Assembly: GCF_028693505.1 (NCBI RefSeq)
Contig: NZ_JAQUVF010000003.1
Location: 1 to 64,000, forward strand
Reading direction: 5' to 3'
Length of the DNA stretch: 64,000 nucleotides
DNA from: Oscillibacter sp.
GTDB lineage: Bacteria > Bacillota > Clostridia > Oscillospirales > Oscillospiraceae
Both the position numbers and the translations under genes were made by a program. The notes under the pieces were generated by a model that saw only the letters and a list, made by a program, of their open reading frames with translations, searched no databases and was not told the origin of the DNA. Below are positions 2-46,495 of the stretch, piece by piece; positions within the stretch are counted from its first letter, which is position 1; the number at the start of each line of letters is the position of its first letter.

Positions 2-286
2 GAGCCCAGTGCCCCCGCCGAGCAGCCCAGCACTCCTTCCGAGGAGCCCAGTGCCCCCGCCGAGCAGCCCAGCACTCCCGCTGAGCAGCCCAGCACTCCC
101 GTCGAAGAGCCTAGCACCCCCGCCGAGGAGCCCAGCGTTCCTTCCGAGGAGCCTAGCACCCCCGCCGAGGAGCCCAGCGTTCCTTCCGAAGAGCCCGGCA
201 CTCCCACTGAGGAGCCCGGCACCCCCACCGAAGAGCCTGCAACGCCTTCCGAGGAGCCCAGCGTTCCTGCTGAGGAACCCGCTTCC
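2..286 (+). repeat. 21-bp tandem repeats coding Pro/Glu heptads
   Basis: About thirteen imperfect 21-bp units in frame with the giant surface protein encode heptads of the pattern [EQ]P[SG]xPxE. The array enters from the left edge, so its full length is unknown. Such tracts are extended, protease-resistant spacers and often vary in copy number between strains. Confidence 0.9.
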
Positions 287-22701: not shown

Positions 22702-22920
22702 AGGCAGAGTAGGAACACACGTGTGAAATAGTGCCGGAAAAACGGGGAGTTGTTTTCCGGACGAAAGGGCTGCATCAGGAGGCGGACAAAATCCGTTCGA
22801 CCACCTGACGCGCGCAAAGCCTTGCAGTGTGTGTTCCGCATCCCGCTGCCGCCAGAGACGGCAATGACCCTTCCTCTGTGCGGCGCTCCGGTATCGGACT
22901 GCCAAATCACAGAAGGAAGG
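22702..22920 (+). promoter_or_regulatory. Tetrahydrofolate (THF) riboswitch with RBS-sequestering expression platform
   Basis: Conserved aptamer pieces are present in order: AGAGTAG, P2 arms GAACACAC/GTGTGTTC, P3 arms CCGGAAAA/TTTTCCGG around GGGGAGTTGT, ACGAAAGGG, and GCATCCCGCT, closed by P1 GGCAG/CTGCC (22703-22850). An extra hairpin (about 22775-22808, TCAGGAGG with CCACCTGA) enlarges the P3-P2 side. Downstream, CCCTTCCTCTGTG (22868-22880) can pair with CACAGAAGGAAGG (22908-22920), which contains the folT ribosome site, so control is probably translational. It sits directly before folT and folC, the expected targets. Confidence 0.9.
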
Positions 22921-42779: not shown

Positions 42780-42810
42780 AAAGAACGCCGGGTCTCCCGG
42801 CGTTCTTTTT
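42778..42810. terminator. Bidirectional terminator
   Basis: AAAAAGAACGCCGGG, TCT loop, and exact complement ending in TTTTT, between convergent spoVAC and the antiporter gene. Confidence 0.93.
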
Positions 42811-44005
42811 ATTCCTTTTGCAGAAACCGCCGGCAGGTGGCGTCCATTCCCAGCGCGCCCAGCGGGGCGGTGAGGAGGATCGCCGTCACCGCCACCGACA
42901 AAACAAGCTTCCCGCAGGGCAGTCCCAGCGAAAGCGGCACGGACCCGATGGCGGCCTGCACGGTGGCCTTGGGAAGGTAGGCGATCATGCAGAAAAGCCG
43001 CTCCTTTCCGTCGAGAGGCGTGCGCAGCAGGCACAGCGCAACGCCCGCGGACCGCACGAGGAGCGCCAGTGCGATCATTGCCAGCACCCCCGGGCCGGCC
43101 GAGAGCGTGTAGCGGATATCCACCGCTGCGCCCACCAGCACGAAGAGGATCACTTCCGCCGCAAGCCACAGCTTGCCGAACTTTTCCGAAAGACGCCGGG
43201 AAACGGCGGGGGCGGTGACGCTTTGCAGCGCGCAGGCCATGGCGATGACGGCCAGCAGGCCCGACAGGGGGACAAGGCCCTCTAACGCCTCCTCCAACGC
43301 CGGAAGCAGCAGGGCAATGCTCAGCACAATGATGACCTTGACGCTGCCTCGGATGGTGTGGGAGCGGGCGTGGCAAAGCTCAAAAAACCGGCCCAGCGCC
43401 GCGCCTGCCAGCGCCCCTGCGGCAATGCCCAGCAAAATAGAGACCGGGACGCCCGCCAAAGCGCCCAGCCCCGGTTCTCCGCCCTGGGCCATGCCGGTGA
43501 AGGTGGTGAAGAGGACGATGACGAACACGTCGTCCAAAGAGGCGCCCGCAAGCAGCATCTGGGGAATGCGCTTTTCGGTGCCCCGGTGCTCCTCCATCAG
43601 CTGCACCATGCGGGGTACCACCACCGCCGGGGAGACTGCCGCCAGCACCGCACCCATGACGGCGGCCTCCACCCGGGAGAGTCCCAGAAGGAGGGGGGCA
43701 AGGAGGACGTAGGCCAGAATCTCAAAGCTGGCGGGCAGAAAGCTCAAAAGCAGGGCGGGCCGCCCCACGGCCTTCAGATCCCGGAGGTCCAGAGAAAGCC
43801 CTGCCTTGATGAGGATGATGACCAGCGCCATCTTCCGCAGGTCGGGAGAAATGGAGAGAATGGAGGGGTCCAGCAGGTCCAAAACAAACGGACCCAGCAA
43901 AATGCCCGTAAGCAGCATCCCGATGATGCGGGGCAGACCCACTCTGCGGCACAAAGCCGCCATGGTAAGCCCCACCAGAAAAATAAGCGCCAGAGACGTC
44001 AGCAT
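42809..44005 (-). CDS. Cation:proton antiporter (CPA2/NhaP-like) under a fluoride riboswitch
   Basis: 398 residues with about twelve helices. GLPRIIGMLLTGILLGPFVL, the discontinuous-helix region ASLDDVFVIVLFTTF (conserved Asp pair), and AEVILFVLVGAAVDI fit Na+/H+ exchanger-type CPA proteins, without the C-terminal nucleotide-binding domain of Kef proteins. ATG 44005 is chosen since AGGAGG lies 7 nt upstream. The leader is a fluoride riboswitch, so a role in fluoride tolerance is inferred: direct export, or repair of pH and ion balance during fluoride stress. Confidence 0.88.
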   Translation of the reverse strand: MLTSLALIFLVGLTMAALCRRVGLPRIIGMLLTGILLGPFVLDLLDPSILSISPDLRKMALVIILIKAGLSLDLRDLKAVGRPALLLSFLPASFEILAYVLLAPLLLGLSRVEAAVMGAVLAAVSPAVVVPRMVQLMEEHRGTEKRIPQMLLAGASLDDVFVIVLFTTFTGMAQGGEPGLGALAGVPVSILLGIAAGALAGAALGRFFELCHARSHTIRGSVKVIIVLSIALLLPALEEALEGLVPLSGLLAVIAMACALQSVTAPAVSRRLSEKFGKLWLAAEVILFVLVGAAVDIRYTLSAGPGVLAMIALALLVRSAGVALCLLRTPLDGKERLFCMIAYLPKATVQAAIGSVPLSLGLPCGKLVLSVAVTAILLTAPLGALGMDATCRRFLQKE

Positions 44006-44023
44006 CAAAAAACCTCCTTAAAA

Positions 44024-44117
44024 CGCAAAAAAGCCGAGGGCTTCTGCGCGCACAGCATCACAGAAGTCATCAGCTTAAAAAAGCGGTTTCGGTCGCCCGT
44101 GGGAGAACTTCATTCCC
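44024..44117 (-). promoter_or_regulatory. Fluoride riboswitch (crcB motif) with terminator platform
   Basis: Read on the minus strand: GGGAATGAAGTTCTCCC (P2 with the pseudoknot loop), a mini hairpin CGG-GCGA-CCG, then AAACCGC, P3 GCTT-TTTT-AAGC, and TGATGACTTCTGTG. These match the conserved order of the fluoride aptamer; ACTTC can pair with GAAGT as the pseudoknot. The 3' strand CTTCTG can instead pair with CAGAAG downstream, next to AAGCC-CTC-GGCTTTTTT (terminator). The aptamer begins right at the predicted transcription start. The GCGA-capped hairpin is an insertion relative to the shortest known aptamers. Confidence 0.85.
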
Positions 44118-44124
44118 GTTTCCT

Positions 44125-44153
44125 AGAATACCATGCCGAAATCCGGGGGTCAA
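44125..44153 (-). promoter_or_regulatory. Sigma-A promoter for the fluoride riboswitch and antiporter
   Basis: Minus strand TTGACC (44153-44148), 17-nt spacer, TATTCT (44130-44125). The predicted start near 44118 coincides with the aptamer 5' end. Confidence 0.88.
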
Positions 44154-44500: not shown

Positions 44501-46495
44501 ATGGCAACAAAGAAGCAAGCTTATGGCAATGAGAGCATCTCATCCCTGAAGGGAGCGGACCGGGTCCGCAAGCGGCCCGGCGTAATTTTCGGGTCTGACG
44601 GACTGGACGGGTGCGAGCACGCGGTGTTCGAGATTTTGTCCAACTCCATCGACGAGGCCCGGGAAGGGCACGGACAAAGCATCACCGTCAAGCGCTACGC
44701 GGACCATTCCGTGGAGGTGGAGGACGGGGGCCGCGGGTGCCCTGTGGACTGGAACGAGAAGGAGCAGCGCTACAACTGGGAGCTGGTGTACTGCGAGCTG
44801 TACGCCGGCGGCAAGTACGACAACGCCACGGGGGAGAGCTACGAGTACTCCCTCGGTCTCAACGGTTTGGGCGCCTGCTCCACCCAGTACGCCGCCCGGT
44901 ATATGGACGTGACGGTGTGGCGGGACGGCTTTGAATATACGCTGCATTTTGAGCGCGGCGAGCTGGTGGGCGAGCTGGGAAAGACGCCGCTGCCCAAAAA
45001 TCAGGCCAAAAAGACCGGCACCCGCACCCACTGGCTGCCGGATTTGGATGTGTTCACCGACATTGCCATCCCGGCGGAATATTTTGCCGACGTGATGAAG
45101 CGGCAGGCGGTGGTGAACGCGGGCATCACCTTCCGCCTGCGCAATGAGACGGAGCCGGGCAAATTCGAGGAGTCGGAATTCTTTTATGAAAACGGCATCG
45201 CGGACTATGTTGCGGAGCTGGCGGGGGAGGAAAGTCTCACCACGCCGGTTTTCTGGCAGGCGGAGAAAAAGGGCCGGGACCGGGCGGACAAGCCGGAATA
45301 CAAGGTCAAGCTCAGCGTGTCCTTCTGCTTTTCCAACAAGGTGAATGTGATCGAGCACTACCACAACTCCAGTTGGCTGGAGCACGGCGGCAGCCCGGAA
45401 AAGGCCACGAAAACGGCCTTCGTCTCCGGGATCGACAGCTATCTGCGCCAGCAGAACAAATACCAAAAGAGCGAGAGCAAAATCACGTGGGCGGACGTGG
45501 AGGACTGCATTGTGCTGGTCTCCAACAACTTCTCCACCCAGACCTCCTATGAAAACCAGACGAAAAAGTCCATCACCAACAAATTCGTGCAGGAGGCCAT
45601 GAACGAGTTTTTGCGCTCGAATCTGGAGATTTACTTCATTGAAAACCACTTTGACGCGGAGAAGATTGCCGAGCAGGTCCTCATCAACAAGCGCTCCCGG
45701 GAGAGCGCGGAGAAGGCCCGGCTGAACATCAAAAACAAGCTATCCGCCAACATCAGCATTGCGGACCGGGTCCAGAAATTTGTGGACTGCCGGTCCAAGG
45801 ACCCGGGAAGGCGCGAGATCTACATCGTGGAGGGCGACTCCGCTCTGGGCAGCGTCAAGCTGAGCCGGGACGCGGAGTATCAGGGCATCATGCCCATCCG
45901 CGGCAAGATTTTGAACTGCCTGAAGGCGGACTACGCCCGCATTTTCAAAAGTGACATCATCATGGACCTCATCCGCGTGCTGGGCTGCGGCGTGGAGGTC
46001 CAGAACAAGCACGTGAAGAACATGGCCGCCTTCGACCTTGCCAACTTCCGGTGGAGCAAGGTGGTCATCTGCACCGATGGCGACGTGGACGGCTTCCAGA
46101 TCCGGACGCTGATCCTCACCATGCTCTACCGCCTCACCCCCACCCTCATCCGGGACGGCTATGTGTATATCGCGGAGACGCCGCTCTTTGAAATCACCTG
46201 CGGTGAGAAAACGTGGTTTGCCTACTCCGACAAGGAAAAGAACAACATCCTCAAGGAGCTGGAGGGGAAGAAGGTCAAGATCGACCGGTCCAAGGGCCTT
46301 GGCGAGAACGACCCGGACATGATGTGGCTCACCACCATGAATCCGGCCACCCGGCGGCTCATCCGGGTCATGCCGGAGGATGTGGCCCGGACGGCGGACG
46401 CCTTTGACCTGCTGCTGGGAGACAATTTGCAGGGCCGCAAGGACCACATTGCCGAAAACGGCTATAAATATCTTGAAATGGCGGATATTTCATAA
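44501..46495 (+). CDS. Divergent type IIA DNA topoisomerase, B (ATPase/TOPRIM) subunit
   Basis: 664 residues. GHKL ATPase with EILSNSIDEA (about 42-51), EDGGRGCPVD and SLGLNGLGACSTQYA in place of the usual GGLHGVGAS; TOPRIM with YIVEGDSALGS (about 440-450), MPIRGKILN and ICTDGDVDGFQIRTL where GyrB/ParE have DADVDGAHI. The order of domains is that of GyrB/ParE, but the motifs differ clearly, so this is probably a third, clostridial paralogue rather than the housekeeping gyrase. Its partner A subunit lies two genes on. GGAGG precedes the ATG. Confidence 0.88.
   Translation: MATKKQAYGNESISSLKGADRVRKRPGVIFGSDGLDGCEHAVFEILSNSIDEAREGHGQSITVKRYADHSVEVEDGGRGCPVDWNEKEQRYNWELVYCELYAGGKYDNATGESYEYSLGLNGLGACSTQYAARYMDVTVWRDGFEYTLHFERGELVGELGKTPLPKNQAKKTGTRTHWLPDLDVFTDIAIPAEYFADVMKRQAVVNAGITFRLRNETEPGKFEESEFFYENGIADYVAELAGEESLTTPVFWQAEKKGRDRADKPEYKVKLSVSFCFSNKVNVIEHYHNSSWLEHGGSPEKATKTAFVSGIDSYLRQQNKYQKSESKITWADVEDCIVLVSNNFSTQTSYENQTKKSITNKFVQEAMNEFLRSNLEIYFIENHFDAEKIAEQVLINKRSRESAEKARLNIKNKLSANISIADRVQKFVDCRSKDPGRREIYIVEGDSALGSVKLSRDAEYQGIMPIRGKILNCLKADYARIFKSDIIMDLIRVLGCGVEVQNKHVKNMAAFDLANFRWSKVVICTDGDVDGFQIRTLILTMLYRLTPTLIRDGYVYIAETPLFEITCGEKTWFAYSDKEKNNILKELEGKKVKIDRSKGLGENDPDMMWLTTMNPATRRLIRVMPEDVARTADAFDLLLGDNLQGRKDHIAENGYKYLEMADIS

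Follow-up and report, generated by a model that had tools for sequence, protein, structure and literature searches.

A fluoride riboswitch before an NHA2-like cation/proton antiporter gene in Oscillibacter and related Clostridia

The stretch of DNA considered here (the window) comprises 64,000 nucleotides of Oscillibacter sp. (contig NZ_JAQUVF010000003.1, positions 1 to 64,000). On its minus strand, a promoter, a fluoride riboswitch aptamer and an overlapping terminator precede a gene for a 398-amino-acid NHA2-like cation/proton antiporter (CPA), in what is, as read from the sequence, a canonical ON-switch layout. Here we describe, by computation, the aptamer, its overlap with the terminator, the family to which the gene belongs, the conservation of its key residues and its association with the riboswitch across genomes.

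The riboswitch and its terminator

We found that the covariance model of the fluoride riboswitch (crcB motif, RF01734) matched positions 44126-44054 of the minus strand over its full length (model positions 1-64 of 64) with 47.0 bits, over the gathering score of 34 bits. The E value was 3.7e-11 in a search of 3.5 kb and 6.7e-10 over the whole window, and this was the single match in the 2.06-Mb genome. The first hairpin (P1, 44101-44117, minus strand) joins GGGA (44117-44114) and UCCC (44104-44101), as indicated by the covariance structure line and by sequence complementarity, and holds in its loop the 5' pseudoknot strand GAAGU (44111-44107). By complementarity, this strand can pair with the 3' pseudoknot strand ACUUC (44063-44067, minus strand). 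The P3 hairpin (44073-44084, minus strand) was placed by the covariance alignment and joins GCUU (44084-44081) and AAGC (44076-44073). A preliminary description of the window had recognized a fluoride riboswitch at this place and had named the covariance search as its check, and the full-length match together with the complementary P1, P3 and pseudoknot strands bears that identification out. Judged on these features, the element at 44126-44054 is a genuine fluoride riboswitch aptamer, and this copy would be expected to bind fluoride and to switch.

For comparison, we used 98 aptamers (96 distinct) standing before antiporter orthologs, a set that excludes the truncated L135 and the weak L144 (the contig of L144 is included as G064). 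From these, 73 inserts, 88 terminators and 75 sets of pseudoknot and stem strands were parsed. The 3' pseudoknot strand was nearly invariant in the 75 parsed relatives, which therefore offer little covariation evidence. A scan for promoters recovered the 17-bp-spaced promoter reported earlier, a sigma-70-type TTGACC - 17 bp - TATTCT (44125-44153, minus strand; 9 of 12 consensus matches). Promoter-like sites numbered two in the region, compared with a mean of 0.3 in shuffles, and for 64 of 97 related aptamers the pattern TTGNNN-16..18-TANNNT lay upstream at a distance of no more than 60 nt (base shuffles: mean 5.3, maximum 14). Transcription likely starts about 7 bases downstream of the -10 hexamer, just before P1. 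This placement agrees with the earlier statement that the aptamer begins at the transcription start, with the correction that the covariance match already takes in the final two bases of the -10 hexamer.

In its full-length match, pseudoknot strands, P3 and a terminator overlapping the aptamer 3' strand, the window copy resembles the RF01734 motif, from which it differs by an additional stem located 3' of the first hairpin and ahead of ACCGC. This stem, the hairpin CGG-GCGA-CCG (44090-44099, minus strand), appears as an insertion in the covariance alignment. The preliminary description was correct in noting its presence, but it is not peculiar to this locus, since relatives carry a stem at the same place. 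Among the 73 parsed inserts (57 distinct), 56 folded into a stem of at least 3 bp, compared with a mean of 19 and a maximum of 26 in 200 shuffles; 16 had just 2 bp and one had no stem. Their mean energy was -4.1 kcal/mol versus -0.8 kcal/mol in shuffles, and the stems took 33 distinct forms, many of them altered on both sides together. A special role for the insert was thus ruled out: in relatives it varies in length and sequence and forms beyond chance, and by this comparison it belongs to the normal variation of this riboswitch lineage.

Folding predicts an intrinsic terminator at 44027-44074 (minus strand), in which GCUGA..CUUCUGUG (44074-44059), common to the aptamer, pairs with CGCAGAAG..UCGGC (44048-44033). 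In this hairpin GCUGA lies opposite UCGGC and CUUCUGUG opposite CGCAGAAG, and six U (44032-44027) come next. The segment 44074-44027 folds at -20.4 kcal/mol, compared with a mean of -11.4 kcal/mol when its downstream part was shuffled (z -3.5). Because this pairing takes the 3' strands of both P3 and the pseudoknot, aptamer and terminator are mutually exclusive. All 88 terminators parsed from the 98 relatives had z < -2 (median -6.0), the P3 3' strand was paired into the terminator in 86 of the 88, and at least 4 of 5 pseudoknot bases were so paired in 56 of the 88. In the available part of a 2026 paper covering 1901 fluoride riboswitches (PMC13273304), two model RNAs exchange the pseudoknot strand and several tested functional variants have a terminator extending through P3; the window terminator resembles these variants, unlike the two model RNAs. 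The largest fluoride response observed there came from a 98-nt Clostridiales riboswitch.

Even if the aptamer strand is unavailable for pairing, an alternative hairpin (44050-44024, minus strand; CGCG..AGAAGCC/GGCUUUU..UGCG; -11.7 kcal/mol) can form. It uses up the U run and may modulate the read-through of this copy. Its existence also bears on a reversed logic, in which the riboswitch would be degenerate or an OFF switch, with CUUCUGUG/CGCAGAAG as antiterminator and AGAAGCC/GGCUUUU as the terminator that forms with fluoride bound. That the short hairpin can form on an occupied aptamer strand speaks for such a logic, as does its terminator-like score, though sites scoring this way were no commoner than in shuffles; some tested fluoride riboswitches also fall into an 'Off' class in the part of PMC13273304 available. 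On the other side, the long terminator is more stable (-20.4 kcal/mol), the parsed relatives share its layout, and the short hairpin consumes the U run. We therefore ruled out the reversed logic, which appears highly improbable given the folding energies and the conserved layout of the relatives.

An NHA2-like antiporter

The gene controlled by this switch would be the antiporter gene at 42809-44005 (minus strand), which begins with ATG and is preceded by a Shine-Dalgarno sequence, AAGGAGG (44013-44019, minus strand), read from the sequence. The ATG at 44005 is the most likely start codon because relatives begin with MLTSL; a TTG start at 44008 was rejected as a product of mechanical open reading frame listing. 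The domain model PF00999 matched residues 10-383, the whole transmembrane domain, with 150.4 bits against a gathering score of 26.2 bits, and NCBIfam gave matches to K+/H+ and CPA2 models that lay far under cut-off. The nearest PDB sequence was NHA2/SLC9B2 (7b4l, E 2.7e-36), with the Na+/H+ antiporter NapA (5bz2) at E 1.1e-9. An AlphaFold2 model built from 29 sequences (mean predicted local distance difference test score, pLDDT, 82.7) had 7b4l as its best fold match, with a template-modelling score of 0.90 on the query and 31% identity. The protein had been called a CPA-type antiporter from the outset, and these matches agree, placing it closest to NHA2.

Sequence alignment with NHA2 identified E95, D158, D159, R318, K346 and T348 as equivalents of Glu214, Asp277, Asp278, Arg431, Lys459 and Thr461. 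In 78 aligned proteins (77 of the 80 named loci described below plus the window protein; L134, L176 and L178 were excluded for stop codons in the matched range), E95, D158, R318, K346 and T348 were conserved in 78 of 78 and D159 in 77. The protein is thus like NHA2/SLC9B2 (7b4l, 7p1k; CPA2 clade) in sequence, fold and six key residues. It differs in being bacterial, in lacking the N-terminal extension that forms helix TM -1 (for which there is no space, residue 21 here being the counterpart of NHA2 residue 139) and in having Tyr343 in place of Trp456, a tyrosine found in 78 of 78 proteins. Since it lacks TM -1 and carries this tyrosine, we regard it as NHA2-like and not as SLC9B itself.

According to the part of PMC8850199 available, Asp277 and Asp278 form the cation site of NHA2, Glu214 and Arg431 form an NHA2-specific salt bridge, and Lys459 and Thr461 lie at the break in TM12. 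The residues are important for the exchange of Na+ or Li+ by NHA2, an electroneutral process that under physiological conditions serves H+-driven Na+ efflux. The preliminary description had allowed either fluoride export or a restoring of ion balance; the conserved NHA2-type residues make cation/proton exchange the likelier chemistry of the window protein. Direct export would mean that the antiporter moves fluoride itself, by F-/H+ or F-/cation exchange, which would add a third class to the riboswitch-controlled exporters Fluc and CLC-F. There is precedent in transporters first taken for 'chloride' carriers and later recognized as exporting fluoride (PMC7266159, as far as available), and H+-Cl- cotransport has been proposed for Drosophila Nha1 in one study (as reported in the accessible part of PMC9174904). 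Against it stand the retained cation-site residues, the inactivity of NHA2 with K+ or Cl- (in the same part of PMC8850199), the statement by the authors of PMC9174904, in the part available, that human NHA1 has no Cl--favoring residues, and the consideration that H+-coupled F- symport would merely repeat HF diffusion.

The gene stands alone, as the preliminary description had it, with a convergent SpoVAC/SpoVAEB gene (PF03862) downstream and a divergent gyrB/parE-type gene (44501-46495) upstream, beyond which lies a topoisomerase A-type gene. A hairpin 3' of the antiporter gene (42781-42806, minus strand), read from the sequence with T runs on both sides, is probably a terminator shared with the convergent SpoVAC-type gene. 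Two Rfam candidates ending at 42809, sau-5971 and AaHKsRNA41, cover this hairpin and were rejected as far under their thresholds.

The riboswitch-antiporter pair and fluoride exporters across genomes

We surveyed three samples, which overlap (for example, L130/G209, L139/G269 and L144/G064): 300 genomes of the family, taken as Oscillospiraceae; 391 genomes of the class, taken as Clostridia; and a third set consisting of the best 80 loci from a scan of named genomes. In the family, 48 of 300 genomes had a riboswitch match. Of 54 sites found, 51 were examined, the three weakest (G034, G147 and G267) being left out, and 30 of the 51 were followed by an antiporter ortholog. These orthologs comprised 33 copies in 32 genomes, one of them a fragment in G206 at 70% identity and the others at 50-77%; the next homologs were clearly set apart, at 34% identity or less. 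A riboswitch accompanied 30 of the 33 copies; in the family sample none was found at the G013 antiporter, and the family scan gave no match for the second G044 copy or the G206 fragment.

In the class, 86 of 391 genomes had a riboswitch match. Eight of these had sub-cut-off matches and were left out, G000 and G066 had been covered already, and G311 was kept despite a score of 33.4 bits, just under the cut-off. The resulting 76 genomes, with 94 sites, were searched for antiporter, CrcB and CLC genes (20 CLC places were entered and the remaining ones compared by eye with the unassigned sites). The next gene was the antiporter at 50 sites, CrcB at 14 and a CLC at 7, with 23 unassigned. Conversely, 50 of 52 antiporter copies (35-76% identity, including contig-end fragments in G414:C126, G546 and G596) had a riboswitch upstream, 34-161 bases away with one at 341, and the 49 antiporter genomes span 24 families and 38 genera. 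No other gene follows the fluoride riboswitch as often as the antiporter in the class sample, and the earlier view that antiporters are a minor target finds no support either there or in the ranking of a 2024 review (PMC11139923) given below.

Proteins of the third set share 55-73% identity with the window protein, and the titles include Faecalibacterium, Ruminococcus, Lachnospiraceae, Christensenellaceae, Erysipelotrichaceae, Negativicoccus, Terrisporobacter and Treponema. A riboswitch stood upstream in 70 of 79 loci, 69 over threshold and one at 29 bits (L113, whose locus begins too near the gene to judge, was excluded), and nine loci of this set had no detectable riboswitch upstream, three Treponema-type loci among them. 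The locus in the window is one member of a widespread arrangement.

Several loci depart from the common form. The three Treponema-type loci (L143, L152 and L154, two of them titled horse faeces) carry antiporters at 63-67% identity with no detectable riboswitch, which suggests transfer of the antiporter without its switch. In L120, 731 bases with no obvious long gene (1770-2500), perhaps an insertion, separate riboswitch and antiporter. L121, upstream of 2501, keeps the aptamer 3' strand and terminator and has lost the 5' half, possibly by deletion or through a chimeric contig. In G076 (C55:26413-27602) the antiporter gene is split in two frames behind an over-threshold riboswitch, and in L043 (G009:C41) riboswitch and terminator are followed by ATG-TTA-CAT-TAG with no antiporter match, perhaps a decayed copy.

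The known exporters are distributed differently. CrcB (PF02537) gave no match in the window's genome in a search that was positive in 10 of 14 control genomes. Across the family, CrcB was over cut-off in 34 of 300 genomes, in 0 of 32 with the antiporter versus 34 of 268 others (Fisher p 0.034). Across the class, it was over cut-off in 75 of 391, in 1 of 51 antiporter genomes versus 74 of 340 others (Fisher p 2e-4, uncorrected for relatedness and with riboswitch-negative genomes assumed, without a search, to lack the antiporter). A Fisher p of 1.7e-8 for riboswitch genomes alone was set aside, as a genome with one riboswitch can have just one target. The rarity of CrcB in carriers suggests that the antiporter substitutes for an exporter. 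This avoidance of CrcB, the possession of the same riboswitch as the exporters and the leading place among class-sample targets are also what direct fluoride export by the antiporter would lead one to expect. So is the finding of neither CrcB nor any CLC match in 18 of the 49 antiporter genomes of the class sample and in 6 of the 32 of the family (24 of 81 entries). Set against the NHA2-type residues, direct export nevertheless seems quite unlikely.

For CLC proteins we compared the CLC-F signatures given in the accessible part of a 2024 review (PMC11139923), namely GNNLI or GMGLI, GREGT or GREGV, and GEVTP; in the class sample they were read by regular expression, and eleven CLCs, mostly unread or unclear, were re-read from an alignment. 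The one CLC found in the window's genome reads GTNDI/GREGA/GEVVP, differs from the CLC-F signatures at all three places and has no riboswitch match nearby. On these signatures it is probably not a CLC-F, though its clade shares the glutamate of GEVTP. With no CrcB found in this genome and the one CLC found lying away from the switch and off the signatures, the antiporter is probably the main fluoride-response gene, as had been supposed.

A CLC was present in 26 of the 32 family antiporter genomes, of the form GTN or GTE/GREGA/GE[IV]VP in 25 and of the canonical form GSGIP/GREGP in one; in none of the 26 did a CLC show all three CLC-F signatures. The GTN or GTE clade shares with CLC-F the glutamate of the third motif and not the other signatures. 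Four riboswitch-linked CLCs of the family read GNNLI, GMGLV or GMGMV, with GREGT/V and GE[VA]TP, and deviations such as GMGLV, GMGMV and GEATP indicate that the signatures are somewhat loose. In the class, 31 of 49 antiporter genomes had a CLC: GSGIP in 15, GREGA/GEIVP in 8, another form in 3 (G361, G414 and G669) and a partly CLC-F-like form in 5. The partial signatures were GNNLI/GREAA/GEAIP in G608, GND/GREGA/GEVIP in G497 and G616, GREGA/GEVIP in G509, and GMALL/GREGV/GEVVP in G645. The CLCs of G497, G608, G616 and G645 (L244, L259, L260 and L262) stand away from the riboswitch.

Riboswitches were also seen in other settings. In one genus (G233, G272 and G183; L003, L005, L045, L047 and L048), fluoride riboswitches precede a MutS-like protein (PF00488) or a 230-amino-acid NifU-like protein, calls that come from scanning one copy of each, with PF01592 just under cut-off for the NifU-like one. 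The window itself holds a tetrahydrofolate riboswitch (RF01831, 77.9 bits) at 22703-22850 on the plus strand.

A possible role in fluoride resistance

Hydrogen fluoride enters the cell, dissociates and is held as F-, the trapping being proportional to the pH difference. Since trapping scales in this way, less fluoride would accumulate if H+ came in electroneutrally in exchange for Na+. We propose, at what we judge to be even chances, that a transcriptional ON fluoride riboswitch controls an NHA2-like (CPA2) antiporter that protects the cell by lowering the pH difference. Without fluoride, the aptamer 3' strand, with its P3 and pseudoknot strands, would be drawn into the long terminator and transcription would end ahead of the antiporter. 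Binding of Mg-fluoride would lock the pseudoknot, block the terminator and let the antiporter be made. The antiporter would then swap Na+, or possibly Li+ or K+, for H+ in a nearly or fully electroneutral manner, and H+ moving in as Na+ moves out would reduce the pH difference, so that less fluoride would be trapped and no fluoride exporter needed. We infer the ion specificity, the direction of transport and the mode of protection. A yeast study cited in the 2024 review PMC11139923 names intracellular acidification in its title as an adaptation to fluoride.

Several observations weigh against this proposal. The alternative hairpin before the gene may, as modeled, leave the ON state of this copy partial. 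In the class, 266 of 340 genomes without the antiporter likewise lack CrcB, so the absence of an exporter alone is no sign of substitution. The GTN or GTE/GREGA/GE[IV]VP CLC clade (L002, L083-L106), which may or may not carry fluoride, accompanies the antiporter in 25 of 32 family genomes. G598, which has a GSGIP CLC too, carries a CLC-F-type gene (GNNII/GREGT/GEVTP) divergent from its riboswitch-antiporter pair, and the five class genomes with partly CLC-F-like CLCs were G497, G509, G608, G616 and G645. The review PMC11139923, in the part available, takes the opposite view of such antiporters, as counteracting acidification, and the accessible part of PMC11477304 reports a C. difficile riboswitch before a CLC-antiporter pair.

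The review and the C. difficile pair both favor a role as helper, in which the antiporter would expel HF-borne protons using the inward Na+ gradient and so sustain metabolism or another exporter. The CLC-F-type gene of G598, the partly CLC-F-like CLCs of the five further genomes and the clade present in most family carriers fit such a role as well. A helper would, on the other hand, raise cytoplasmic pH and with it fluoride trapping. It should also accompany an exporter, as a substitute should not, and the rarity of CrcB in the same genomes, together with full CLC-F-type CLCs in just 1 of 49 class and 0 of 32 family antiporter genomes, favors the substitute. We consider the helper role unlikely.

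The association itself is already known in kind. PMC11139923, in the part available, ranks Na+/H+ antiporters as the next most common riboswitch-associated genes after exporters, sees in them a function in pH homeostasis, and cites the discovery paper, Baker 2012, for the association. The associations so cited are of the same kind as that described here, with the antiporter family unnamed in that part; the present survey traces a single NHA2-like clade, and its avoidance of CrcB, through a class. C. difficile CD0656-7, as described in the accessible part of PMC11477304, likewise joins a riboswitch and an antiporter gene. There, compared by annotation, a CLC and a NhaP-type-annotated antiporter form an apparent operon, whereas the window antiporter stands alone. 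Among titles and abstract openings of the open-licence literature, we found no study testing a riboswitch-controlled cation/proton antiporter for fluoride.

Our survey adds that one antiporter clade can be singled out, as the commonest riboswitch target in the class sample and as one that avoids the Fluc exporter. Tentatively, and with more doubt than confidence, we suggest that the NHA2-like antiporter is an unrecognized third kind of primary fluoride-resistance transporter that takes the place of Fluc and CLC-F in many Clostridia, whether it carries fluoride itself or runs down the pH gradient. The locus is of moderate interest because the whole arrangement makes the role of the antiporter testable: whether it is by itself a resistance determinant, and whether it moves fluoride or acts on the pH gradient. 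The NHA2-like antiporter may be the main fluoride defense of related bacteria that mostly lack known exporters.

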